A DNA stretch of 35,335 nucleotides from Pirellulales bacterium (GTDB lineage Bacteria; Planctomycetota; Planctomycetia; Pirellulales; JADZDJ01). The DNA is taken from positions 1-35,335 of the forward strand of contig DATJYL010000207.1 of assembly GCA_035499655.1 (NCBI GenBank). Direction: 5' to 3'. Below the pieces are notes generated by a model. That model saw nothing but the letters and a program-made list of their open reading frames with translations. It made no database searches and was not told where the DNA came from. Of this stretch, positions 8,186-33,386 are shown piece after piece (within the stretch, counting starts at the first letter, position 1; each line of letters opens with the position of its first letter). A program made the translations under genes and the position numbers.

Positions 8186-8256
8186 GTTTATACTCGATGA
8201 GCTTCAATCTTGAAAATCGACTAAATTGTTAGTGCGGGATCAAACACAGGTGAGCC

Positions 8257-9435
8257 ATGTCCGCCTACCGCTGGCGATTGTTCAAATTGTTTGGAATTCC
8301 CATCTCGGTAAACTTGAGTTGGGTCGTTATCCTCGCTCTCATCACACTGACGATATCTGCATCAATTCCCGCATGGACAAATGAATACTTTGGTGCCAGC
8401 GCTTCACAGCTTGTGCTGTGGCAGAGATGGCTTCTTGGATTGATTGCTGCATTGACCTTCTTTGCCTGTATCGTTCTTCATGAACTAGGCCACGCCTTAG
8501 TGGCCCGCTCCTGGGGTTTGCCAATTCAAGGCATCACGCTGTTTCTTTTCGGCGGAGTTTCGGAACTTAAAGGGGAGCCAACGTCGGCGGCGAGCGAGTT
8601 TTGGATGGCTGTTGCCGGTCCATTTGTGAGCCTACTCCTGGGACTGGTTTTTGGGTTATTGGCATGGTTGGGTTATCAGGCTGGCTGGTCTCCACCGATA
8701 GTCGTCGTGTTTGGTTATCTTGGCGCCATCAATCTTTTGCTGCTTGCGTTCAATATGGTTCCGGCATTTCCGTTGGATGGCGGTCGAGTGCTACGTTCCG
8801 CTTTGTGGGCGACTACGGGGAATTTGCGTCGGGCCACACACTGGGCGTCAGCTGCCGGGCAAGTTTTTGCCTGGCTGCTGATTGCCTGGGGTATCGTCCA
8901 ACTTTTTGCCGGAAATTGGTTAGGAGGCATTTGGTTGGGATTGATCGGTATGTTTCTCAATGATGCCGCGCAAAGCAGTTATCGGCAGGTCATAATTCGC
9001 AATGCCTTGAGGGGAGAGCCCGTACGGCGATTCATGAATTCTCAACCGATTGTGGTGCCACAGTCTCTCGATCTATCTCATTGGGTTGAAGATTACGTGT
9101 ACCGCTTCCATCACCGCGCATTTCCGGTAACGTCGAACGGACACTTGGAGGGATATATTAGCACACAAGAACATAGCAAAATGCCCCGCACCGAATGGAT
9201 TCGGCGCACAGTGGGCGAGGTCATGCAGAGAAATTTGGAACCCATCGAAATTACACCGGAGGCCGATGCACTGGCTGCTCTTGGAAAAATGCAGCGTAGC
9301 GGCTGCAGCCGTCTACTGGTGGTTGAGCACGAACAACTCCTGGGAATTATCAGTGTGAAAGATCTCTTGCAGTTTTTAGATTTAAAAATGGAATTAGAAT
9401 CGGGTGAAGACAACACCCTCGATCGGTGCACGTGA
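8257..9435 (+). CDS. Site-2-protease-like M50 metallopeptidase with CBS domains
   Basis: A polytopic membrane protease of 392 residues. Zinc ligands are in HELGH (residues 75-79), with the third ligand Asp in FPLDGG (D174). About six hydrophobic helices span residues 20-230, including WMAVAGPFVSLLLGLVFGLL. The last 130 residues form a CBS pair: PIVVPQSLDLSHWVEDYV ... HRAFPVT near 265-295, and VGEVMQRNLEPIEITPEADAL ... GIISVKDLLQFL near 325-375. This is the SpoIVFB/Rv2625c-type layout. Such proteases cut membrane-embedded anti-sigma factors or other regulators, and CBS domains usually sense adenine nucleotides. The substrate is not apparent. Only a weak AGGTGAG lies before the ATG. Confidence 0.93.
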   Translation: MSAYRWRLFKLFGIPISVNLSWVVILALITLTISASIPAWTNEYFGASASQLVLWQRWLLGLIAALTFFACIVLHELGHALVARSWGLPIQGITLFLFGGVSELKGEPTSAASEFWMAVAGPFVSLLLGLVFGLLAWLGYQAGWSPPIVVVFGYLGAINLLLLAFNMVPAFPLDGGRVLRSALWATTGNLRRATHWASAAGQVFAWLLIAWGIVQLFAGNWLGGIWLGLIGMFLNDAAQSSYRQVIIRNALRGEPVRRFMNSQPIVVPQSLDLSHWVEDYVYRFHHRAFPVTSNGHLEGYISTQEHSKMPRTEWIRRTVGEVMQRNLEPIEITPEADALAALGKMQRSGCSRLLVVEHEQLLGIISVKDLLQFLDLKMELESGEDNTLDRCT

Positions 9436-9490
9436 AAGAGCTTTCGGGCACTGATGAAGAATGGGCACCAGTAATAATATGGAGACCGCC

Positions 9491-9871
9491 ATGAATTCAC
9501 GGCTATTGGTGGCACATTCGGATGAGGAATTATTGAGTATCTATCAAAGCTTCTTTTGGGACAAAGGCTTCGAAGTCGAAGTCGCTGCGAACGTGGAGGA
9601 ATGTTTGGTGACATTGCCCGAATTTGAACCGGATCTTCTCTTAATCGAACACGAACTGCGCGGCGGCGGCAGTGACCGGGTGATTTCCTTTTTACGTGAC
9701 TACGAGCCAAAGTACGTTCCCTCAGTAGTACTTTTGTCCAATCATCGCCAACTAAGCGATCTAGAAATGTTCGTTAACCCGCCCATCTACGCTTGTTTAA
9801 AGATGCCCGTAAGCCATTACAAAGTCTTGGAGGCGGTTTGTAACCTGGGGGGTCTGCAGTTTGTTGAATAG
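9491..9871 (+). CDS. Receiver-like protein with a Glu at the phospho-acceptor position
   Basis: A stand-alone receiver-fold protein of 126 residues. It starts with the first receiver strand (RLLVAHSDEELLSIYQSFFW), continues through PDLLLIEHELRGGGSDRV, and has strand four VVLLSNH and a late Lys in CLKMPV. In canonical receivers the third strand ends with the phosphorylated Asp (LLLxD); here it reads LLLIE, so the residue appears to be Glu, which can mimic phosphorylation. The ATG at 9491 has GGAG 6 bases upstream; two earlier in-frame ATGs (9461, 9479) are less well placed. It follows the M50 protease gene by 55 bp and may be in its transcript. No output domain is present. Confidence 0.72.
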   Translation: MNSRLLVAHSDEELLSIYQSFFWDKGFEVEVAANVEECLVTLPEFEPDLLLIEHELRGGGSDRVISFLRDYEPKYVPSVVLLSNHRQLSDLEMFVNPPIYACLKMPVSHYKVLEAVCNLGGLQFVE

Positions 9872-10099
9872 GGGCTCTGTGTCAGTGCAATCCGTCGGGC
9901 CCGCAAAGGACAAGGCAAATACTGAAGTTGCATTAGCGTGTAACAATAGTTCGAGTTGACACAAAGTTGACACAGAATGGCTTACACAAGCTCACTATAA
10001 CTGCCGCGCAAGTAAGATAACAAAAACGGTTTAATATCTGGGATAAAATTAATAGAGGAAGCCGCTAGAGTTTTTGCTGGCGGGTTGTGAAGCAGAGTT
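9872..10099. other. Intergenic stretch with a short direct repeat
   Basis: No gene is seen. GTTGACACA occurs twice, 11 bp apart (TTGACA at 9956-9961 and 9967-9972). Both match the -35 consensus, but the nearest TATAAC lies at 9996-10001, which is too far for a standard promoter. The stretch ends at the truncated membrane-protein gene. Confidence 0.35.
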
Positions 10100-10348
10100 T
10101 CATGGCTTTTGGTTGCGTCTTTTCTGCCACCAGGCGTCGAGTGCTATACCAAATCCTAAGCTCACAATAATCCCTCTTCCAAGTTGCCGAGCGAAAAACC
10201 GATCTGATTCGTCGGTATAGGTCGGAAACGTGCAGATCACTGCGAATGCAGGAACACAAATGGCAATCCAAACAATTTTGTGAAAAAGTCGTACGGCATT
10301 CCCAGCGTCGGCTACTATTGCACTAGTGCGTTGTTGGCTACTGGGACC
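10100..10348 (-). pseudogene. 3' remnant of a small membrane-protein gene, cut at the IS boundary
   Basis: On the minus strand a frame runs from a stop at 10349-10351 to a TGA at 10100-10102 and encodes about 82 residues. It has two hydrophobic segments (IVWIAICVPAFAVICTF and GIIVSLGFGIALDAWW) and a basic tail (QKRRNQKP), which looks like real membrane-protein sequence. It contains no ATG, GTG or TTG early enough to start translation, and it begins exactly where the IS5 element ends. The simplest reading is that insertion or later rearrangement removed the 5' end. Joining the frame across the element to the far flank does not restore an open frame, so the lost part is not simply on the other side. 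No family was recognised. Confidence 0.5.
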
Positions 10349-10367
10349 TTAGAACCACCGGACAAAA

Positions 10368-10829
10368 CTAACTTTGATTGATCCAGGTACGATAACAGAT
10401 GACTGCTGCGGCGAGGGTCAGGAAGGCCTGATGGACAAGCGGGTTTCGGTCCCAACGGGTGCGGAGTCGTCGGAACTGATGCAACCAACTTAGCGTGCGT
10501 TCGATGAACCAACGCATCGTTCCTAGACCGGCCTGGCTTTGTCCTCGATGGGGGATCAGGGGTACGATGCCGAGCCAACGCAGTAGTTGTCGTAGCGATT
10601 TGCAGTCGAACGCCTTGTCGGCGACCAGCGCCGTCGGCTTTTGCTTCGGTCGGCCCGGCTTGCCCGCGACGGCAGGCATCTCGATGACCAACGGCAAGCA
10701 GGTATTCACGTCATGTTGATTAGCAGGTTGCAATTGGACTACCAGCGGAATTTGGTGGTTTTGCTGACCGAGAATACCGCGAGCATCAAGTTTGCGGACC
10801 ACCAGCTTATCTAACACCGCCGGTGCCAT
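10368..10829 (-). pseudogene. C-terminal part of an IS5-family DDE transposase
   Basis: About 150 residues matching the last half of IS5-type transposases. LVVQLQPANQHDVNTCLPLV resembles the strand before the second catalytic Asp, ALVADKAFD holds that Asp, and TMRWFIERTLSWLHQFRRLR is the very conserved C-terminal motif with the catalytic Glu. The region with the first Asp is absent, so it cannot be active. The in-frame ATG at 10829 is probably fortuitous: upstream of about 10760 the similarity to the family fades. The matching N-terminal scrap lies more than 1 kb away at 11843-11893. Confidence 0.85.
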
Positions 10830-10857
10830 CTGGGTTCACTGCTTTCGTCGCACCCAC

Positions 10858-10938
10858 GAATTTATACACAGCCCAGCGAATTTGTACTCAAAACGGATTT
10901 TGTACACAAAGCCCCCATCCGACTGTACTTTTGTATAG
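10858..10938 (+). promoter_or_regulatory. Repeated AT-rich elements upstream of the polymerase frame; possible LexA-type box
   Basis: Three near-copies of a 13-base element follow each other at 17-20 base spacing: GAATTTATACACA (10858), GAATTTGTACTCA (10878) and GGATTTTGTACACA (10895). After them TGTACTTTTGTATA (10924-10937) resembles the cyanobacterial-type LexA box (GTAC-N4-GTWC) in front of a Y-family polymerase, a gene class often under SOS control. The family role is established; assignment to LexA here is a guess. Confidence 0.3.
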
Positions 10939-10967
10939 TATCGCAATCCCCTATTCCGATAGGCCAC

Positions 10968-11942
10968 TTGGACGCCGATTGCTTCTACGTTTCCGCGGAG
11001 CGGGTACGCTACCCGTTTCTAATCGGTCAGCCCGTAGGCGTGTTGTCGAATCAAGGGGCCTGTGTAATTGCCCGGTCCTATGAATTGAAGGCTTACGAGG
11101 TCACCGTTGCGTTGCCAATCTGGGAAGCCCAGCCAAAATGCCCGCACGCGATTTACGTGAAGCGGGATTTTGAATGGTACGAGTGCTTGTCACGTCGGCT
11201 GCTAGGCATTTTGCAAACAGTCAGCCCAACAGTCGAATACTACAGCATCGACGAAATGTTTTTTGAGGCTGACGGCATTGACCCACGGCCATTGCAGCGA
11301 CGGATTCTCAATGAAGTTGGTATCCCTGTCACCATTGGTATTTCTAAAACGCGGTCTCTCGCCAAGCTGGCCTCGGACAACGCCAAGCCGTTCGGCTGCT
11401 GGACCGCAACCAGCGATGAACAGATTGCCGAGTTGCTGGTTGATCGGCCCGTGGATGAAATTACTGGGATTGCCAAACGTAGCAGCCGCAAGCTGGCTCC
11501 CTACGGCATTACGACGTGTGCCGACTTTGCCCGGGCCGACCGCCGTTTAATTCGCAAGCTACTCACCAAAACCGGCGAATCGTTGTGGTGGGAATTAAAC
11601 GGCCATCCTGTTACGCCAATCAGTACCACACGGCTACCGCACAAGATTCTTTCCCGTGGTGGGAGCGTCGGCAAAGCGACAGACGACCCAGCCCGCTGTG
11701 AGGCGTGGCTAGTCCGCAACGTGGAGCGGCTAATTGAGGCACTTGATTATCACCTGGTCTATACCGAGCAAATTGCCCTGGCGGTGGAGTACAAAGACGC
11801 CAGCGGCGACGGCCGCCCTTGCTCGATTCGGCCATCGGCGGCAAGTGGTTCGATCCGTTTCCATAATTCATCCGGTACCAGCAATTTGGCCATGACAATC
11901 CTCCTTGATCGGTCGTCTCTAAAACAAACGACATCAAGGTAA
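10968..11942 (+). CDS. Y-family DNA polymerase (DinB/UmuC superfamily), truncated
   Basis: A 324-residue frame similar to planctomycete Y-family polymerases. Catalytic carboxylates are intact: DADCFYVSAE at the N-terminus and EYYSIDEMFF near residue 92. GISKTRSLAKLASDNAKPFG and the HhH-like region DEITGIAKRSSRKLAPYGI are also conserved, followed by the start of the little-finger domain (RLIEALDYHLVYTEQIALAVEYKD). After about residue 280 the sequence stops resembling the family and runs antisense through the IS5 transposase start, so the natural C-terminus is lost. The start is also unclear: the TTG at 10968 is in the middle of the conserved first strand and no ATG precedes it in frame. It is therefore probably non-functional or reduced, trapped inside the IS element. 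Confidence 0.75.
   Translation: MDADCFYVSAERVRYPFLIGQPVGVLSNQGACVIARSYELKAYEVTVALPIWEAQPKCPHAIYVKRDFEWYECLSRRLLGILQTVSPTVEYYSIDEMFFEADGIDPRPLQRRILNEVGIPVTIGISKTRSLAKLASDNAKPFGCWTATSDEQIAELLVDRPVDEITGIAKRSSRKLAPYGITTCADFARADRRLIRKLLTKTGESLWWELNGHPVTPISTTRLPHKILSRGGSVGKATDDPARCEAWLVRNVERLIEALDYHLVYTEQIALAVEYKDASGDGRPCSIRPSAASGSIRFHNSSGTSNLAMTILLDRSSLKQTTSR
11843..11893 (-). pseudogene. N-terminal scrap of the IS5-family transposase
   Basis: From the ATG at 11893 the minus strand encodes MAKLLVPDELWKRIEPL, which is the standard opening of IS5-family transposases. AAGGAGG at 11900-11906 gives an excellent ribosome binding site. A neighbouring frame briefly continues with the expected LPP, then similarity ends where the polymerase coding sequence begins on the other strand. 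This scrap and the 10368-10829 fragment are the two ends of one interrupted gene. Confidence 0.7.
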
Positions 11943-12001
11943 CCACACGGCCAAAAATCAAAAATACGGTTTTGTTATAGCCTCCAAGCTAAAACTGACT
12001 C

Positions 12002-12406
12002 TTAATGCCGTTCAGTGAACGGTCCCGGTTGGCCATCCCACGTGAGATTGATAGTAATCGAATCGGTTGGCCCGGTGATTTCTTGGGTGAGTCCGGAAGA
12101 ATCGAAGTCAGCGTACTTTTTCGGCGCGTGCCATTTTAAGATTTCTGCGCCGATCGGTTCGTGCGAGACAACCGTTACCCGGTGTTTTCCGGTAACCGCT
12201 CCGTCGCCTGATTCAAAGCAACTAAGGACAAACTTGCCGTCCTTATCGAGTCCGCCGCTAGATGCCCGCGAGTCCTTTGGGGCGAAGGTTACGTATCCGT
12301 AGGCCAACGGCTTGCCGTCGATCAATACATGACCGGAAACCGGAACCCGCACGGGGCGTCCGTCACCGCAGCCCATGGTTGCAATGAGTGCGCAGCCGGC
12401 TGCCAT
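12002..12406 (-). CDS. Small carboxypeptidase-regulatory-like lipoprotein
   Basis: About 134 residues. A short hydrophobic N-terminus leads to a lipobox-like Cys (ALIATMGCGDG), then a beta-sandwich of the type common in planctomycetes: VRVPVSGHVLIDGKPLAYGYVTFAPKD, then GLDKDGKFVLS, then GKHRVTVV. The V-x-G-x-V-x-x-D-G-K-P-L pattern is typical. Its gene follows the DUF1559 protein by about 30 bp, a pairing seen repeatedly in planctomycete genomes, so the two probably act together at the envelope. The start is uncertain: ATG at 12406, or TTG at 12412 with two more residues. A much longer open frame extends upstream but is only the antisense-like shadow of the DUF1559 gene in another frame. Confidence 0.8.
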   Translation of the reverse strand: MAAGCALIATMGCGDGRPVRVPVSGHVLIDGKPLAYGYVTFAPKDSRASSGGLDKDGKFVLSCFESGDGAVTGKHRVTVVSHEPIGAEILKWHAPKKYADFDSSGLTQEITGPTDSITINLTWDGQPGPFTERH

Positions 12407-12437
12407 GCCCAACCATGACCGACCAAAAATCGTCCGA

Positions 12438-13541
12438 TCACTGGAGATTGAAAGAATCTCCCTTGCTGATGGTAGCCATCGCATTGTAGTTTTTGGAGTC
12501 GATGGTATCGGTGAAGAACCGCACGTGGCCGTCGGCGAAAAGGAAATTGCCGCCGCCCACGTGGTCGCTGCCGAACGCGCCAACAATGTAAACGCCGCTG
12601 TCATTCCAAATGGGAGGCGAGGGGGTGGAAGAACCGGGAATTGTATTGAGCGGCAATTCGGTTGTACGCAATGAATCGAGATGTCGATTAGCGACGCTCC
12701 AAATGTTGCTGCTGACCGCCGTGTTGCCAGCGCGAATTTCGCCCACCAAGGCGGTTTTGCTGAGGCCATCGGTAATGTCGATGAAGCGTTTGGTGAGCAG
12801 ATACACAAACGCGCCGGTGTTGTGGAGCTTTACCGGGTCGGCACTGTCGCCATTCGATGGGCCATTGGTGCCACTAACAAAGGCGTAGGTTCCCGTGGTG
12901 TAGAAGGGGCTAGCATTGGGGGCCTGGCCGTCGGGCGTAGGGAGTGTTTGGCTCGACGGGCAAACGTACACCGCTGGTCGTTGTGCCAGCCCATTCAGTT
13001 TGTTTGGATCCGTTTTCCAGGCCTGCATGGTGGGGTCTTCGGTGAGCAGTCGCTCCGAATCGAACGGGCTAAGCATGTTGTAGAGCAGTTGTTCTTCCAA
13101 ATAGGGCAAAATCAGCACGAAGCCGCTCATGTTGCAATAGTATTGGAGCTGAGTGTTCGCAATTGCACATTCCTCACCGCGATAGCCATCGCAACCGTAA
13201 CGGCCGGGGGGTAATCTTTTTTTGACGTTGACGTAGTTCTGGAGCGCCAAACCGATTTGTTTGAGATTGTTGGCGCATTGGCCGCGGTGGGCTGCTTCCC
13301 GCGCCGCCTGCACCGCCGGCAGCAGCAAGGCGATGAGAATGCCGATGATAGCAATCACCACCAGCAGTTCGACGAGCGTAAAGGCCGAGCTCCTTGTTCC
13401 CCTCGTGCCTCGCCGGCCAGTGTGGGGACTCGGCTCGAATAAGTTTTCCGTAATCAGACTTGTAAGCAAACTGTTACAGCTTGGCGACATTGGGATCAAT
13501 GTGCGCGCCAACACTCCCGGCCGTCGCGACAGAGGTTGCAT
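12438..13541 (-). CDS. DUF1559 protein with type-IV-pilin-like N-terminal segment
   Basis: A 367-residue planctomycete pseudopilin-like protein. The prepilin segment is at residues 54-80 ([20 protein letters not shown]) and is followed by the family motif [10 protein letters not shown]...[12 protein letters not shown]. Near the C-terminus [12 protein letters not shown] is the H-x9-DG signature. The residue before the Phe is Ala, where Gly is classical, and the leader is unusually long (53 residues). The ATG at 13541 has GGGAG 7 bases upstream; a later ATG (13490) would give a more normal leader but lacks a clear ribosome site. Its function is unknown; family members are numerous, envelope-associated and usually genetically linked to small lipoproteins like the next gene. 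Confidence 0.93.
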
Positions 13542-13777
13542 GCAACCGCTCCCAAGCAAGATAGAATCCCCAATAAACCGACCGATAAGCCCCTACAGTT
13601 ATCGCTGAGTACCATTGCGATTTACGAAAAAAAAGCGACTAGACCCAAAAATTGACATAAAAATAGGGAAATAGCCAAACGTTCGGAATTTGTCATTCCA
13701 GGCTGAACCGATGTCGGCTTAGAGGCCAGGTCTTCACGTAGCAATATAAGAATCAACCACCACAAACGCTCCGTGCG
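13542..13777. other. Intergenic region upstream of the DUF1559 gene
   Basis: It holds the promoter of the DUF1559 gene and the 3' flank of the beta-helix gene. An A-rich block lies at 13628-13680, with TTGACA at 13652 on the plus strand but no matching -10 at suitable spacing. No gene or clear terminator is seen. Confidence 0.35.
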
Positions 13778-23639: not shown

Positions 23640-26600
23640 TTGTATCCGGCCAAGATTGTATCTGCCGCGGGCCCGGCATTGCGCTGGGGCTTTGTATTTA
23701 GCGGCATCGTTTTTGGTGCGTGGGGCTGGTTGGTGGCCCAAGCCGCTACGGTAGATGTTGCGGCAGGGAATTCCAGCGCTCTAAGCACTGCCGTGACCAA
23801 CGCCAAGCCCGGCGATACCATTGTGCTGCTGGGGGGCACCTACAACACCGGAATCACCACCCACACCGACGGCACGGCCGCCCTGCCGATTACGGTGATC
23901 GGCACCAACGGCGCGAAGCTGAATAGCTCGGTCACCACCACGGGCAGCGGTATTTCGTGCAGCAACGATTATTGGGTTTTTCAAAATATTGCGATCAACG
24001 GATTTCAAAAATCGGTCCGCATCGATAACGGTTCCCACGGAATTCTCAACGGATTGGTCTGCACTAATTCCGGCAATGAATCGATCAAACTGAAAAACTC
24101 CTCTCAGTATTGGCTGGTCGAAAACTGCTCGGTTTCCAATGCCGGAATGGAGGGTTTTTACTGCGGCGACGCCGACCAGAACTGGGAAGGGGGCGTGCCC
24201 GATCAAACCGGCTACGTAACCTTTTACCACGATACGGCCTTCCAAACGTATAATGATGGTTTCGATTCCAAAGAGGCGACCCACGACATTCGCATTATCG
24301 ATTGTTCGGTCGATTGGAATAACACGGTGCCCGGCGGAAACGACGAAGGGGACAGCGGCGTGTATGATCGCGCGAACGGGATTCAAATTGTCAACCTGAA
24401 TGCTAAGAACAACGGCTCGGTGGGAAATGGCGTTCGCGCGAACCGTCTGACGGCGATGAATGGCGTGGCTTACGGCAGCGGAGCGCAGATTTACGGCCTG
24501 GTGCTCAACAACATGCAAGGCACATTGCTGTCGACGAATCAATCAGATACCGCCTTGTACACGAACTATTCGATGACAAACGTGGCCGGCGGATTGGGTG
24601 ATTCCGGCCACACGCAGCCCAACCCCGCCACGTTTTCTTTGACCGGCTGGAATGACCCCAGCGGCAGTTTTCCCACCATCAACATGGTATGGGACAACAG
24701 CCAATCGGCCGTGGGAAATGGCACTACGTGGGATTACAACCAACAGAATTTCAACGATCCCGGCGTCAACGGCAACATTCCGGTCATTTTTTTCCAGGGC
24801 GTAAACGTCGTGTTCAACGACAGTAATAATGGCCATTACAATGTGAACATCGGCGCCAGCGTCAGCCCTGCAGTGGTTATCGTGAACAATAGCTCGGGCA
24901 ACTACGTCTTCAGCGGCAGCGGCGCGATTACGGGAGCTGCCACCCTGACCAAAAGCGGCACGGGAGCGCTCACCATTTCCAACGCCGATACATACAACGG
25001 CAATACCACCGTCAACGGCGGCACGCTGGTCGTCAACGGCAGCGTTTCCTCCAGCGCCTTCATCGTCAATTCAAGCGGCACGCTGCAGGGCTCGGGCAGC
25101 ATTGGCGGCAGCGTAACGATTGCCTCCGGAGGAACGCTCAAGCCGGGTAACTTTTTCGGCGCAACTTCGACCCCGGGTGCATTGCACCTTGATGGGGGCG
25201 TGACGTTCAGCAGCGGGTCCGATTTAAATATCGTTTTAATGGGTAACATTCCGGGCACGCAGTATTCACAGCTGCAGGTGCAAGGGCAAGAGAACTTTGG
25301 AGGAACGCTCGATGTTTCGCTGAGTGGTTTTTTGCCTCAAGAAAACAATTCATTCGATATCCTCGTGGGGGGTTCGCGCAGCGGCATGTTCAGTACCGTA
25401 AACCTGCCCACCATGAACGGCCGCATTATGTGGGATTCATCGCAGCTTTACACGACCGGCAATCTGACGGTGCTGAAAACGTATTACGCAGGTGATTTCA
25501 ACCGCGATGGATATGTGAACGCGGCCGATATTTCAGCCATGATGGCGGCCCTGCTCGATTTGCATGGCTACGAATCTGCCAAAGGGCTGACTGATCCGCA
25601 ATTGCTCCTCGTCGGCGACGTGAACGGCGACGGCAAAGTCAACAACGCCGACATTCAAGCCCTGCTCAATTTGCTGAAATCCGGCCGCGGCTCCACCGAT
25701 CCCGTCCCTGAACCCGGCACTTCCATCCTTTTGATCATCGGTCTGGCTGCATTTTTCCAATTTACTTCCAAGCGCCGTCCCATCGCGCTTGCTTTGTGCT
25801 TTCTGGCAGTCATTTGGCTTGCACCGCAGTGCGCTCGCGCCGCCACCCCGGTGGTGGTTCAGAACGAAGCCGGCTTCGAAGGCCTGGAAGAACCCACGGT
25901 CATTTATTTTCCCGACACCAACACCTTTGAGAACGATCCCACCAATTTTCAAAACCACATGGATGAAGGGGGCGGACTGTTCCGCGATATGCTCCGCAAC
26001 TATTACTCCACCTTAGGTTGGTGGGACGGCGACGGCGCCGATGCCGGCAACACCGATCGCCAGCGGGTCGAACCCAAGGGGATTGTCGGCCTGGGCCATC
26101 AGCAAGTCGAACAAACGTTTGAGTACTCATTCGATTTCCGCACCGACCCCACCTTTCAAGCCACCAGCGACTTCTGCCATATTTTCCAACTCAAAGCCAC
26201 CAACGGCGACGACAGCCCGCCGCTGGCCACCATCTCGCTTTATAAAAGCGGTTCCGGCATTCAGGGGCGAGTCGACGCATTTTCTGACGGCTCTACCGGC
26301 AACACCACGGAATCCATTCCGGTGACATTCTCTTACACCGCCGGCCAGTGGATTCACTTTGATATTCGCATTACCCCCTGCGCCGCCGGAGAAAGTACCG
26401 GCCAAATTCAACTTTCGGTCAACGGCGGCGCCTTCACCGGCATTACCAATGCCCCGGTAGACTTGACCGGCTCGACCGACTTCCGACCCAAATTCGGTTT
26501 TTACCGTGGCATTTCCACGACCGATGGCGTGCCTGCGGGCCTCTCGTGGGTCGAGCACGACGCCATCACCGGTTACATCGGCACCAACAACGTGCTGACG

Positions 26601-28463
26601 TGGAATGGCACGGCGACAACCAATACTTGGGATAACAATACGACGCTAAGCTTTTTAAACGGCGCCAGCGCCACATCGTTCGGCATCAACGATGAAATCA
26701 ATTTCACCGACGCCGCGGCCAACACGACGGTCAATATTTCAGGCAATGTCTTCCCCAACTACATTCGCTTCAATTCGTCGAAGGACTATACGATTTCTGG
26801 GACCGGCTCGATTGTCGGCGGCACGCTCCGGAAAGATGGCGCCGGCACGCTCACGCTGGCCACCACGAATTCGTATGACGGCTTGACCGATGTCACCGCC
26901 GGCACGTTATTTGTTACCGGCTCGATCGGCAATACCTCGCTGGTTTCCATCACCGGAGGCACGCTCAAAGCCGGTTCCACCGCAGCGCTGGGGACCAACT
27001 CCACCATCGGCACACAAATTGACGGCGGCACGCTCGACATCAACGGATTCAATCTGACTACGGAGCCGATTTCGGTCGATGGCACAGGCGCAGGCGGCGT
27101 GGGGGCGATTATCAACAGCGGCGCTCAGCAAACCAGCGCCCTGACCAACGTGACGCTCACCGGCGACACCACCTTCGGCGGCACCGGACGCTGGGATATT
27201 CGCGGCACCGGCGCGACGCTGAGCACCGGCGGCGGCAGTTACAATTTGACGAAAACGGGCACGAACCAGGTGTCGTTCGTCGGAACCAACGTCGATGCCG
27301 CGCTGGGCAACATCAGCATTAATCAAGGCGAGCTTTGCTTTCAGACCAGCACCACTTCCATGGGCGACCCCAATAAAACCGTCACCGTGGCATCGGGCGC
27401 GGTGCTGGGATTTTACAACACTTCCGCCGTCATGAGCAAGCTCTGCACGCTCAACGGCGGCACCATCTGGGGCGAGAGCGGCACCGGCACGCAAAATACT
27501 TTTTCCGGCGTTATTACGCTGGGCGCTTCCGGCGGCGTGTTCGATGCCGGCAGTGCGCTCACCGGCGGCACTCCTAACACTAACGCTGTCCTCACGCTCA
27601 GCGGAGCTATCGGCGGCATCGGCACGCTAACCAAAAACGGCCCCGGCACCGTCACAATTTCGGGAAGCACCAACACCTGGTCGGGCGGCACCAACGTCAA
27701 TGGCGGCACGCTCACCGACAGCGGAATGATTCCTGGCACGATCTTAGTGAACTCTACCGCCACACTTCAAGGCGCGGGAAGTGTTGCCGGTTTGGTTACC
27801 GTTGCCAGCGGTGGGACCATTTCGCCCGGCACCGGCGGCATTGGCACGATGTCAGTCGGATCGCTCACGCTGAACAGCGGCGCGACCGCCGTCTTCCAAT
27901 TGGGCGGCGCAACCAGCGTGCAATTCGACCAAATTCACTCCACGGGAAAAGTGATGCTCGGAGGCACGCTATCGGTTTCTCTCACGAATAATTTCCTGCC
28001 GTTTTGGGGAACCAGTTTCGACTTATTCAATTGGACTTCCGAGTCGGGCACATTCAGCGCGCTGAATCTTCCAACCGCCAACGGCCGAATCGCCTGGAAC
28101 ACCACGCAGCTTTATACCACGGGTGCTATTTCAGTAGCCGCTACTTATCTGGCCGGCGATTTCAACCGCGATGGATATGTGAACGCGGCCGACTTATCAG
28201 CCATGATGGCGGCCCTGCCCGATTTGCACGGCTACGAATTCGCCAAAGGGCTGACTGATCCACAATTGCTGCTCGTCGGCGATGTTAACGGCGATGGCAA
28301 AGTGACTAACGCGGATCTGCAAGCTTTGTTGAGTTATCTTAAATCCGGGGGCGGCTCTACCGACCCGGTCCCCGAGCCGGAGGGGATCGTGTTGCTATCT
28401 CTGGGCATTTTGGCACTGCTTTTCCAGCATCGGGGTGGGCTCGACCGTTTCCAGACCGAATAG
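23640..28463 (+). CDS. Giant fused exoprotein: beta-helix lyase + dockerin + PEP-CTERM joined to jelly-roll lyase + repeats + dockerin + PEP-CTERM
   Basis: About 1607 residues. Half one: signal peptide (GFVFSGIVFGAWGWLVAQA), PL6/PL9-like right-handed beta-helix (about 40-330; GDTIVLLGGTYN, YNDGFDSKEATHDIRIIDCS), autotransporter-associated strand repeats, a dockerin-like pair (DFNRDGYVNAADI and DVNGDGKVNNADI, from about 618), and a PEP-CTERM tail (P690-E-P, helix, SKRR). Without a stop it continues into a second signal-like segment (IALALCFLAVIWLAP...ARA, 715-734). Half two: a heparin-lyase-I-like jelly roll (about 735-985; FEYSFDFRTDP, HIFQLKA), further strand repeats, a second dockerin (about 1505-1575) and a final PEP-CTERM. 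The TTG at 23640 has GGAGG 5 bases upstream and is preferred to the GTG at 23592. It is probably exported and surface-sorted, and degrades an acidic polysaccharide (inference). Confidence 0.88.
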   Translation: MYPAKIVSAAGPALRWGFVFSGIVFGAWGWLVAQAATVDVAAGNSSALSTAVTNAKPGDTIVLLGGTYNTGITTHTDGTAALPITVIGTNGAKLNSSVTTTGSGISCSNDYWVFQNIAINGFQKSVRIDNGSHGILNGLVCTNSGNESIKLKNSSQYWLVENCSVSNAGMEGFYCGDADQNWEGGVPDQTGYVTFYHDTAFQTYNDGFDSKEATHDIRIIDCSVDWNNTVPGGNDEGDSGVYDRANGIQIVNLNAKNNGSVGNGVRANRLTAMNGVAYGSGAQIYGLVLNNMQGTLLSTNQSDTALYTNYSMTNVAGGLGDSGHTQPNPATFSLTGWNDPSGSFPTINMVWDNSQSAVGNGTTWDYNQQNFNDPGVNGNIPVIFFQGVNVVFNDSNNGHYNVNIGASVSPAVVIVNNSSGNYVFSGSGAITGAATLTKSGTGALTISNADTYNGNTTVNGGTLVVNGSVSSSAFIVNSSGTLQGSGSIGGSVTIASGGTLKPGNFFGATSTPGALHLDGGVTFSSGSDLNIVLMGNIPGTQYSQLQVQGQENFGGTLDVSLSGFLPQENNSFDILVGGSRSGMFSTVNLPTMNGRIMWDSSQLYTTGNLTVLKTYYAGDFNRDGYVNAADISAMMAALLDLHGYESAKGLTDPQLLLVGDVNGDGKVNNADIQALLNLLKSGRGSTDPVPEPGTSILLIIGLAAFFQFTSKRRPIALALCFLAVIWLAPQCARAATPVVVQNEAGFEGLEEPTVIYFPDTNTFENDPTNFQNHMDEGGGLFRDMLRNYYSTLGWWDGDGADAGNTDRQRVEPKGIVGLGHQQVEQTFEYSFDFRTDPTFQATSDFCHIFQLKATNGDDSPPLATISLYKSGSGIQGRVDAFSDGSTGNTTESIPVTFSYTAGQWIHFDIRITPCAAGESTGQIQLSVNGGAFTGITNAPVDLTGSTDFRPKFGFYRGISTTDGVPAGLSWVEHDAITGYIGTNNVLTWNGTATTNTWDNNTTLSFLNGASATSFGINDEINFTDAAANTTVNISGNVFPNYIRFNSSKDYTISGTGSIVGGTLRKDGAGTLTLATTNSYDGLTDVTAGTLFVTGSIGNTSLVSITGGTLKAGSTAALGTNSTIGTQIDGGTLDINGFNLTTEPISVDGTGAGGVGAIINSGAQQTSALTNVTLTGDTTFGGTGRWDIRGTGATLSTGGGSYNLTKTGTNQVSFVGTNVDAALGNISINQGELCFQTSTTSMGDPNKTVTVASGAVLGFYNTSAVMSKLCTLNGGTIWGESGTGTQNTFSGVITLGASGGVFDAGSALTGGTPNTNAVLTLSGAIGGIGTLTKNGPGTVTISGSTNTWSGGTNVNGGTLTDSGMIPGTILVNSTATLQGAGSVAGLVTVASGGTISPGTGGIGTMSVGSLTLNSGATAVFQLGGATSVQFDQIHSTGKVMLGGTLSVSLTNNFLPFWGTSFDLFNWTSESGTFSALNLPTANGRIAWNTTQLYTTGAISVAATYLAGDFNRDGYVNAADLSAMMAALPDLHGYEFAKGLTDPQLLLVGDVNGDGKVTNADLQALLSYLKSGGGSTDPVPEPEGIVLLSLGILALLFQHRGGLDRFQTE
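25491..25720 (+). repeat. Dockerin/PEP module, copy 1
   Basis: This segment encodes the first dockerin-like pair and runs to the PEP motif. It aligns colinearly with copy 2 at a constant offset of 2664 bases (25491 with 28155, 25704 with 28368) and is nearly identical over long runs, including the stretch around GCGGCC...ATGATGGCGGCCCTG. After the PEP motif the similarity stops. Confidence 0.85.
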
Positions 28464-31600: not shown

Positions 31601-33386
31601 TCAAACGGTCACTCTCAGCAATCCGCTGACCGTGGCCACCGGCGGAATCTTGGTGACCAACCCCAATGACGAAACGCTGTCGGGCAGCAGCATCACCTCA
31701 GGCAATGGACAGGATGTGATTTTCCAAATCAAGAATTCCGATCACAACCTAACGTTGAGTTCGCAGATTACCGGCAGCGTGGGTCTGACGCTGATTGGCG
31801 GCCCTGATTCCGGCGGCATACCCAATCGTGGCCGGCTCAAACTGGAAAATTCCACCAACAATTTTGTGGGCAACATCACCATTGCTAGTGGGCGGCTCCA
31901 GCTTGATGCCGCAGCGCTAGGGGATCCCAGTAATTCCATTGTGATCATGGGCGGCCTCAATGGCGGCGGACAATTGTTCGACAATAACGTGGCCATTGCC
32001 GCCACGCACCAAATTTTGATTTCCGGGCTGGGTTTTGCCGAAGGATCAACGTCGGGCAGTTACGGCGCCATTCGTGTCCGAAACACCATTTCCAGCCCGA
32101 TTTTGCTGACCGGCGACGCCCGCATCGGCACCAGCAACAGCGGAATATTGGCCGGGCCGATTTCGGGCGATAATGAGTTGTCGTTGGCCGCAGATTCCGG
32201 TCAAACGCTCACCCTTTCTAGCGCTGCGAACGATTGGACAGGCGGCACGCGCATTGAGCGCGGCAAAATTGTGCTGGGAGTCGACAATGCTCTGCCCACC
32301 GATACGCTATTGACATTTGGCTCGACTATCGCCCCCGTCGGCCCGTGGAGTCCGCGAGGCAGTGCCACGCCCACACTGGAGCTGAACGGCCACAATCTGC
32401 AATTGGGTGGCTTCACGATTCAGTCGCCCCTGGACACAGGCTACAGCGGAACCCCCACGATCACCAACACCGGCAACACCGCGGACTTGCTCACGATTAA
32501 TAACACGGCTGATTTCAATTTCGCCGGCACCATCACCAACGGCGCCAATTCGCTTTCGGTAATGAAGCTTGGCGCGGGCACGCAAACCATATCGGGCACC
32601 AATAGCTACACGGGCACAACCACCATCAACGGCGGCGCTTTGGTCATAGGAGCCGCTGGCGCACTGCCCACGGGCGGTGCGGTCGTCAACAATGCTGCGT
32701 TTAACGTCGATGCCAATACATCGGCGGGCAGCGTGTCGGGCACGGGAACCACAACCGTAGCTGGCGGAGTTATCTTGAACGCCAGCAGTTTCGCGCAAGG
32801 TAAGTTGACAATGCAGCTGGCCGGTGCCGCAGCCTCAGCCAATGCCAAGCTAAATGTCTCCGGCACTTTGACGTTGGCAGGCAGCAGCTTAGAGGTGGTT
32901 GCGATCGGTGGCTTCACACCATTGTTGGGGAACAGCTTTGATCTGCTAGATTGGGGTAGCCGTAGTGGATTTTTTTCATCCGTGGAACTGCCCGCGCTGG
33001 GAAATTCGCTGGCCTGGAACACCACCCGGCTGTATACGGCGGGCATCCTCTCGGTAATTGACAGCAATTATTTGCCGGGAGATTTCAATCGCGATGGCGA
33101 AGTCAACGCCGCGGACGTTCTGGTCATGGAACAGGCGCTGACCAATTTGCCCGGATACCAAACCGCTAAAGACCTAACCAATGCACAATTGTTGGCAATC
33201 GGCGATGTTAACGGCGACGGCAAAGTCAACAATGCGGATCTGCAAGCCCTGCAGAGCTTTCTCGAATCCGGCGGCGGTTCCACCGACACCGTGCCCGAGC
33301 CGGCTGGGGCCGTGTTACTATCTCTGGGCACTTTAGCACTGCTTTTCCAGCGGCGGACTAGGGCTCGATCGTTTCCAGTCCAATAA
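28617..33386 (+). CDS. Giant beta-helix exoprotein with autotransporter-type repeats, dockerin and PEP-CTERM
   Basis: A 1589-residue protein. The signal peptide (MARLGVSLFVILQMAVILRT) is followed by WVFYGADGKLQYQATAAGD, then GYMGGT, and a Pectate_lyase_3-like beta-helix to about residue 560. This part is paralogous to the protein encoded at 13778-15475. Residues from about 680 (WNGAGANANWTTGANWG) to 1450 hold autotransporter-associated beta-strand repeats, with phrases such as GLTKTGLGTLKL and AYSGPTTVNGGTL. A dockerin-like pair begins near 1487 (DFNRDGEVNAADV, DVNGDGKVNNADL), and the PEP-CTERM tail follows from about 1560 (VPEPAG, hydrophobic helix, QRRTRAR). AAGG 5 bases before the ATG supports the start over the GTG at 28614. 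It is probably exosortase-sorted to the surface; no exosortase gene is in the window. Confidence 0.9.
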   Translation: MARLGVSLFVILQMAVILRTALADAPPSSWVFYGADGKLQYQATAAGDTIPDFSGAGYMGGTQNIPLVPVVLTLNPSPTPTDDTARIQAAINQVSAMPLVNGVRGTILFTAGTYDISSTLNINASGVVLRGQGQGPTGTLFYSTGTTMYNVIEAEPTGSDSFHAVSGTTSTIVDSYVPVGATSFSVSSADISTYHVGDQIVVNRPSTQAWITAIGMDATGLGTEAWSPNSSFIQADRTITAINGDKITVNLPITTSLDSTNGDAYGGGTIFKYTTSRISNVGVENIRFDTVFASTSDNNHANRPIEFDGVSNSWIRNTTTLHYYNGPYFGAYSEFDTMQDNVFLDAVGDAHTGGFALGGQTAVIQRNYTDNTHAPFVTQDSHTVGPSAFVFDTAKDSLQSVGPHQRWASGVLWDNIKVTNASSGSGGIELVNRGNFGSGQGWAGANMVTWNTNSPWIDVESPPTAQNWAIGAISPDRRVDFTGPEGIYDSFGTPVSPNSLYIAQLKQSLGTQPTATATHQFSVGPNTNFTGPSVMPYIDPDWQALVQSSDMPGSGSVVGFDNSTLNARRAATILYSLKPQEKVVSGTLTLKVEALANLTTNDSFFLGSAGMELDFDMMGQLPWSKNQIRTITLDLSDIYGPLLGPLQNDSLTAGKFNLFWNGNVSIDSAQLTLGTIGFTSGVSRTWNGAGANANWTTGANWGGTAPAAGDSLVFDGTLGLVNTNNLAANSLITGLAFQSTAGAFVISGNAITMGGDITDQSTALQTINFGLALDTTHTVNVTGGGTLVLGGVVSGNGAGLTKTGLGTLKLIAANAYSGPTTVNGGTLILDFAPVAPSSILSSSSTVALGGGALAVNGAAAGSIQTVSSLTLNAGASALSVTSNGSATSLNLGAITRAVGGAVNFTLPTAGSITTTTANANFSGGQQSIIGGYATVAGATWAVSASDGNTPGAITGLANYVTNVFTAGKDVDLTSSQTSASTLTINSLRLSGNSSGQTVTLSNPLTVATGGILVTNPNDETLSGSSITSGNGQDVIFQIKNSDHNLTLSSQITGSVGLTLIGGPDSGGIPNRGRLKLENSTNNFVGNITIASGRLQLDAAALGDPSNSIVIMGGLNGGGQLFDNNVAIAATHQILISGLGFAEGSTSGSYGAIRVRNTISSPILLTGDARIGTSNSGILAGPISGDNELSLAADSGQTLTLSSAANDWTGGTRIERGKIVLGVDNALPTDTLLTFGSTIAPVGPWSPRGSATPTLELNGHNLQLGGFTIQSPLDTGYSGTPTITNTGNTADLLTINNTADFNFAGTITNGANSLSVMKLGAGTQTISGTNSYTGTTTINGGALVIGAAGALPTGGAVVNNAAFNVDANTSAGSVSGTGTTTVAGGVILNASSFAQGKLTMQLAGAAASANAKLNVSGTLTLAGSSLEVVAIGGFTPLLGNSFDLLDWGSRSGFFSSVELPALGNSLAWNTTRLYTAGILSVIDSNYLPGDFNRDGEVNAADVLVMEQALTNLPGYQTAKDLTNAQLLAIGDVNGDGKVNNADLQALQSFLESGGGSTDTVPEPAGAVLLSLGTLALLFQRRTRARSFPVQ

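Follow-up and report, generated by a model that had tools for sequence, protein, structure and literature searches.

A truncated Y-family polymerase probably left between the remnants of two different IS5 elements in a Pirellulales genome

The window analysed here is the whole 35,335-nucleotide stretch of contig C207 (DATJYL010000207.1, assembly GCA_035499655.1) of a Pirellulales bacterium whose 4.54-Mb genome is assembled in 244 contigs. Within it, two pieces of transposase coding sequence lie in the same orientation, both on the minus strand, and a polymerase frame on the opposite (plus) strand fills the gap between them (IMS domain, E = 1e-32). A sequence-only reading of 10352–11919 had described this arrangement correctly, including the loss of the first catalytic Asp. 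The left and right pieces correspond to columns 125–261 and 1–30 of a 267-column profile of related transposases (nine translated sequences, two places entered twice, hence seven distinct); columns 31–124, about 94 codons that include the first catalytic Asp, are thus absent between them, and no DDE transposase with all three catalytic residues is found across 10352–11919. The features are as follows.

10352..10829, minus strand: 3′ remnant of an IS-A-type IS5 element, comprising the transposase C-terminal half and the outer end GAACCACCGGACAAAACT beside TTA (NF033580, profile, identity to IS-A left ends)
10830..10912, no strand: spacer with three imperfect repeats of ~18 nt around TTTGTACACAAA at 10857–10912 (repeat families D2/D9)
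10913..10950, plus strand: 38-nt repeat of a tRNA-Ser(TGA) 3′ end and ~29 nt downstream of it, attachment-site-like (match to C203:3826–3863)
10953..~11812, plus strand: 5′ two thirds of a Y-family DNA polymerase, ~286 of 396 codons (IMS E = 1.2e-32, paralogue identity, codon alignment)
~11809..11892, minus strand: N-terminal codons ~1–30 assigned to a second, different IS5-family transposase (profile columns 1–30, similarity to other IS5 5′ ends)
11893..11982, minus strand: probable 5′ leader of the second IS, with the candidate outer end GAGGCTATAACAAAACC (comparison with a related element)

The boundary between the polymerase and the right transposase piece falls somewhere in about 11806–11840.

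The left piece (10368–10829, minus strand) matches the C-terminal part of the IS5-family transposase model NF033580 (transpos_IS5_3, positions 137–257, E = 9e-27). Over up to 142 nt it is 88–89% identical to six other left ends of an element that we term IS-A, and its comparison with the IS-A left end gave a local score of 203 against a shuffle mean of 15.7. A search of the whole genome with the pattern CCACCGGACAAAACT, allowing at most one mismatch, returned 15 places; apart from the one in the window, all lie at contig ends. These 14 comprise six left and eight right ends, which carry the same terminal repeat, GAGCCACCGGACAAAACTA, at both ends of IS-A. TNA precedes 13 of them and ATA the remaining one. 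Because the contigs stop within ~145 nt of these ends, the interiors of IS-A are missing from the assembly. The same end pattern gave 0 matches in viral contigs.

The right piece begins with an ATG at 11892 (minus strand) and matches profile positions 1–30 with 10 bits, a score that is weak alone. Its assignment as a transposase N terminus, less firmly confirmed than that of the left piece, draws support from the resemblance of its DNA to further IS5 5′ ends: the comparison scores were 46 (G051), 42 (L140), 38 (L141), 33 (L138) and 25 (L139), each reached by 0 of 300 shuffles. By contrast, comparison with the IS-A right end gave a score of 18, which 47 of 300 shuffles reached, and all eight known IS-A right ends differ from the right piece. 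A failed match is not proof by itself, since L143, a true IS5 5′ end, also scores only 18 against the right piece (56 of 300 shuffles). The TA-flanked inverted repeats that had been proposed to bound the unit did not hold up either. The best candidate for a right repeat at 11919 agrees with the 17-nt left repeat at 9 of 17 positions, which 230 of 300 shuffles equal, and matching terminal inverted repeats at both ends of 10352–11919 are accordingly absent. No short target duplication flanks this interval, which has TTA on the left and TAA after 11919, with only TA in common. Judged by eye, the outer end of the right IS would be better placed near 11982, where the candidate end GAGGCTATAACAAAACC has TTG beside it, than at 11919; in a related element the repeat lies ~95 nt upstream of the ATG.

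These comparisons bear on the idea that there is just one IS5 element, whose core was replaced by a captured polymerase fragment through insertion and deletion and whose right end has since diverged. The shared orientation of the two pieces and the fact that they are complementary without overlap speak for such an element. However, the left end is 89% identical to IS-A and the right end has no above-chance match to the IS-A right end, no terminal repeat matches, and the divergence would need to have been confined to one end. We therefore consider this explanation improbable, and the earlier description of one IS5-type element with a replaced core is not borne out: the left piece is of the IS-A type and the right piece resembles other IS5 5′ ends.

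The polymerase piece retains codons 1–286 of the 396 present in each of two intact paralogues on contigs C220 and C174, to which its DNA is 76% and 73% identical, respectively; it has ATT where the paralogues have ATG. The IMS domain is complete (positions 1–148 of 148), with the DADCFY and SIDE motifs present. A complete little-finger (IMS_C) domain is not found in the piece, which ends at about residue 286; the domain occupies residues 231–332 in a paralogue. The frame has no internal stop and stays open to 11942, running antisense to the right transposase piece. Among 91 columns that are invariant in 15 intact relatives, none is changed in the window polymerase, and its pairwise dN/dS against the paralogues of its own genome (0.085 and 0.090) is close to that between the paralogues (0.076), with synonymous change near saturation. 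Because there is no stop, no invariant column is changed and dN/dS is close to that of the intact pair, the break appears to be recent. These patterns suggest that the polymerase piece was functional until recently or may still be of consequence, which counts against a reading of plain decay.

The polymerase has an orthologue in a relative of the same genus (G001, contig C142; L133, 4029–4700). This copy is itself broken, in that a frameshifting deletion removes the SIDE motif and the flanking coding sequence remains; for this reason, the polymerase lineage seems to be decaying in the genus. Relatives of the polymerase lie mostly in Pirellulales, Isosphaeraceae, Gemmataceae or other Planctomycetota. 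Searches of plasmids and phages gave, among the matches listed, only distant Y-family polymerases, all below 60% identity, and no relative of the intact polymerase was confirmed in viral contigs.

Directly upstream of the polymerase ATG in both paralogues and in the G001 orthologue lies a perfect palindrome, TAGTGTAC-N5-TACACTA (L011, 4827–6038; L012, 1897–3106; L133, 3569–4694), which the window polymerase lacks. The pattern matched 7 of 182 loci, all of them copies of the C220, C174 and G001 places; the loci that contain the window were unmatched. The palindrome is a candidate operator, possibly for an SOS regulator. Next after the polymerase, C220 and G001 both have an MCLG ORF and then an SRAP or SRAP-like (MCGRF) gene, and C174 has an MCLG ORF and an MCGRF ORF that resembles the C220 SRAP gene. 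The C220 gene is the only one of the three that was scanned (Pfam SRAP, E = 9.8e-70). In G001 the cassette neighbours a Prim-Pol/D5_N primase, and primases of this kind occur on phages and plasmids. Palindrome, polymerase, MCLG ORF and SRAP or SRAP-like ORF together form a candidate damage-controlled cassette. Upstream palindromes and MCLG/MCGR ORFs were also sought in more distant polymerase loci (47 of 55 relative loci, the eight weakest or shortest being left out, plus L086); no shared operator was found there, and an MCLG ORF was present in four of the loci scanned (L048, L049, L060 and L070).

Immediately upstream of the polymerase piece, positions 10913–10950 are identical at 34 of 38 nt to C203:3826–3863 (L017, 3826–3863; E between 1.4e-7 and 2e-6, according to the length of the query). 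A tRNA-Ser(TGA) gene lies at C203:3748–3836, and the repeat consists of the 9 nt that lead up to the end of its acceptor and the following ~29 nt. More tentatively, the 38-nt leader may come from an attachment site, as the two copies have the look of an attachment-site pair, and an origin of the cassette in an integrative element with a tRNA-Ser attachment site is plausible but unproven. With the tRNA-end repeat as the other boundary (34 of 38 nt), the element between the two repeats was not found. The 29 nt downstream of tRNA-Ser(TGA) are not conserved in two family members, and the pattern of the 38-nt core occurs in 0 stretches of viral contigs. The three ~18-nt repeats in the spacer adjoin the 38-nt core and might be arm-type or operator sites; a search of 20 genomes, its own included, found the spacer itself (10830..10912) nowhere else at E ≤ 0.05. 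As a separate observation, the halves of the G001 tRNA-Ser(TGA) gene lie on different contigs (L178, G001:C36:7534–7573; L177, G001:C168:50440–50491), split near the anticodon loop. ARAGORN reports no gene in either, and an insertion or an assembly break is possible.

Elsewhere in the window, a 289-nt repeat lies at 25481–25769, 28145–28433 and 33068–33356, inside very large ORFs (1,623 and 1,590 codons), its copies being 72–76% identical to the reference copy. A stretch at ~13200–13390, in the ORF at 12438–13559, has dozens of matches per genome in three genomes of the family and is probably part of a large paralogous family, which we take to be DUF1559-like. The window contains 0 tRNA genes, and an Rfam scan of 9800–12600 gave 0 matches. 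Conservation of the left flank (8200–10340) at the DNA level was considered and discarded, with no match in either of two family members. The right flank has a conserved counterpart in G001 (C158), but beyond window position 12001 nothing in that genome aligns with the IS and polymerase pieces of the window, and a clean empty site can therefore not be read there.

The 1,568-bp unit (10352–11919) occurs once in its genome; the remaining genomic matches are partial, namely the two polymerase paralogues, the six IS-A left ends and the 38 nt adjacent to the tRNA gene. IS-A breaks the assembly at 14 contig ends while the unit is assembled through, which indicates that it is single in the assembly. 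Across 196 genomes of the order, 30 had some match, and among the matches listed outside the window (two candidates scored per genome) none crosses a junction. The sequence-only reading had taken a single copy, with polymerase junctions differing in relatives, to mark scrap rather than a mobile element; of these two, the single copy is what we find. The junctions might instead be an assembly chimera, formed where IS copies confuse the assembler. The 244 contigs of the genome and the contig breaks at IS-A copies would fit this. However, the three parts lie inside one contig, and the left piece differs by 11% from IS-A and the polymerase by 24–27% from its paralogues, too much for either to be a collapsed repeat. 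We regard a chimera as very unlikely.

Taken together, the interval from 10352 to ~11982 is most probably a decayed mosaic, in which a deletion-trimmed relic of a polymerase cassette lies between the remnants of two IS5 elements, and not one element. We infer an order of events in which the polymerase–SRAP cassette would first have been resident at the locus, or been brought there. On one side of it would have lain an IS-A-type IS5 element; the other side would have held an IS5 element unrelated to the first. Deletions would then have removed, on the left, the central part of the IS as far as the polymerase leader and, on the right, the 3′ third of the polymerase, the genes downstream of it and most of the IS there. 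The earlier suggestion of a relic of insertion plus deletion thus survives in spirit, given the single copy and the broken genes; it fails in the form of one IS5 element, as the two ends come from different ones. Since its ends do not match as a pair and its catalytic centre is incomplete, the remnant is not expected to transpose, nor is the locus expected to yield a complete polymerase. It is highly unlikely that the open frame of 324–329 codons is still translated into a shortened polymerase that ends in a novel tail, encoded antisense to the transposase piece, and acts as an operator-free, constitutive mini-mutator born of IS decay.

Several of these features are known from other systems. 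Like members of the IS5 family (NF033580), the locus has the C-terminal half of a transposase, including the second Asp and the Glu region, and a TNA-type target beside the left end, as at 13 of the 14 other IS-A ends; unlike them, it has no complete transposase, matching second end or target duplication. Y-family polymerases near SRAP genes are known from SOS-linked gene neighbourhoods (Biol Direct 2013, PMC3765255). The C220 and G001 arrangements of polymerase, MCLG ORF and SRAP or MCGRF gene resemble these, and C174 is similar; the window differs in having only the 5′ part of the polymerase and in lacking both the SRAP gene and the operator. Rearrangements and adjacent deletions are known to leave IS remnants that have no target duplications (PMC11708052). 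There, as here, IS ends without target copies lie beside truncated genes; the two different IS5 elements set the window apart.

A limited literature search, from which we make no claim about print at large, found no paper on an IS5 element with polymerase cargo. The proposal that the unit is a non-autonomous element carrying a mutagenic polymerase, moved by the IS-A transposase, could point to the multicopy state of IS-A and the open cargo frame, but it is the least credible of the readings: the unit is single, only one end is recognizable as IS-A and the ends come from different IS5-family elements with no matching repeat pair, and the cargo is truncated and has neither the start codon nor the operator of the paralogues. 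The locus is thereby struck from the candidates for a novel type of cargo-carrying IS. More generally, finding complementary transposase pieces on both sides of a gene does not prove that they form one element, and the ends need to be checked against intact copies. The apparently mobile polymerase–SRAP cassette, with its shared palindromic candidate operator and its decay in two related genomes, may be modestly useful for the study of SOS genes in Planctomycetes.
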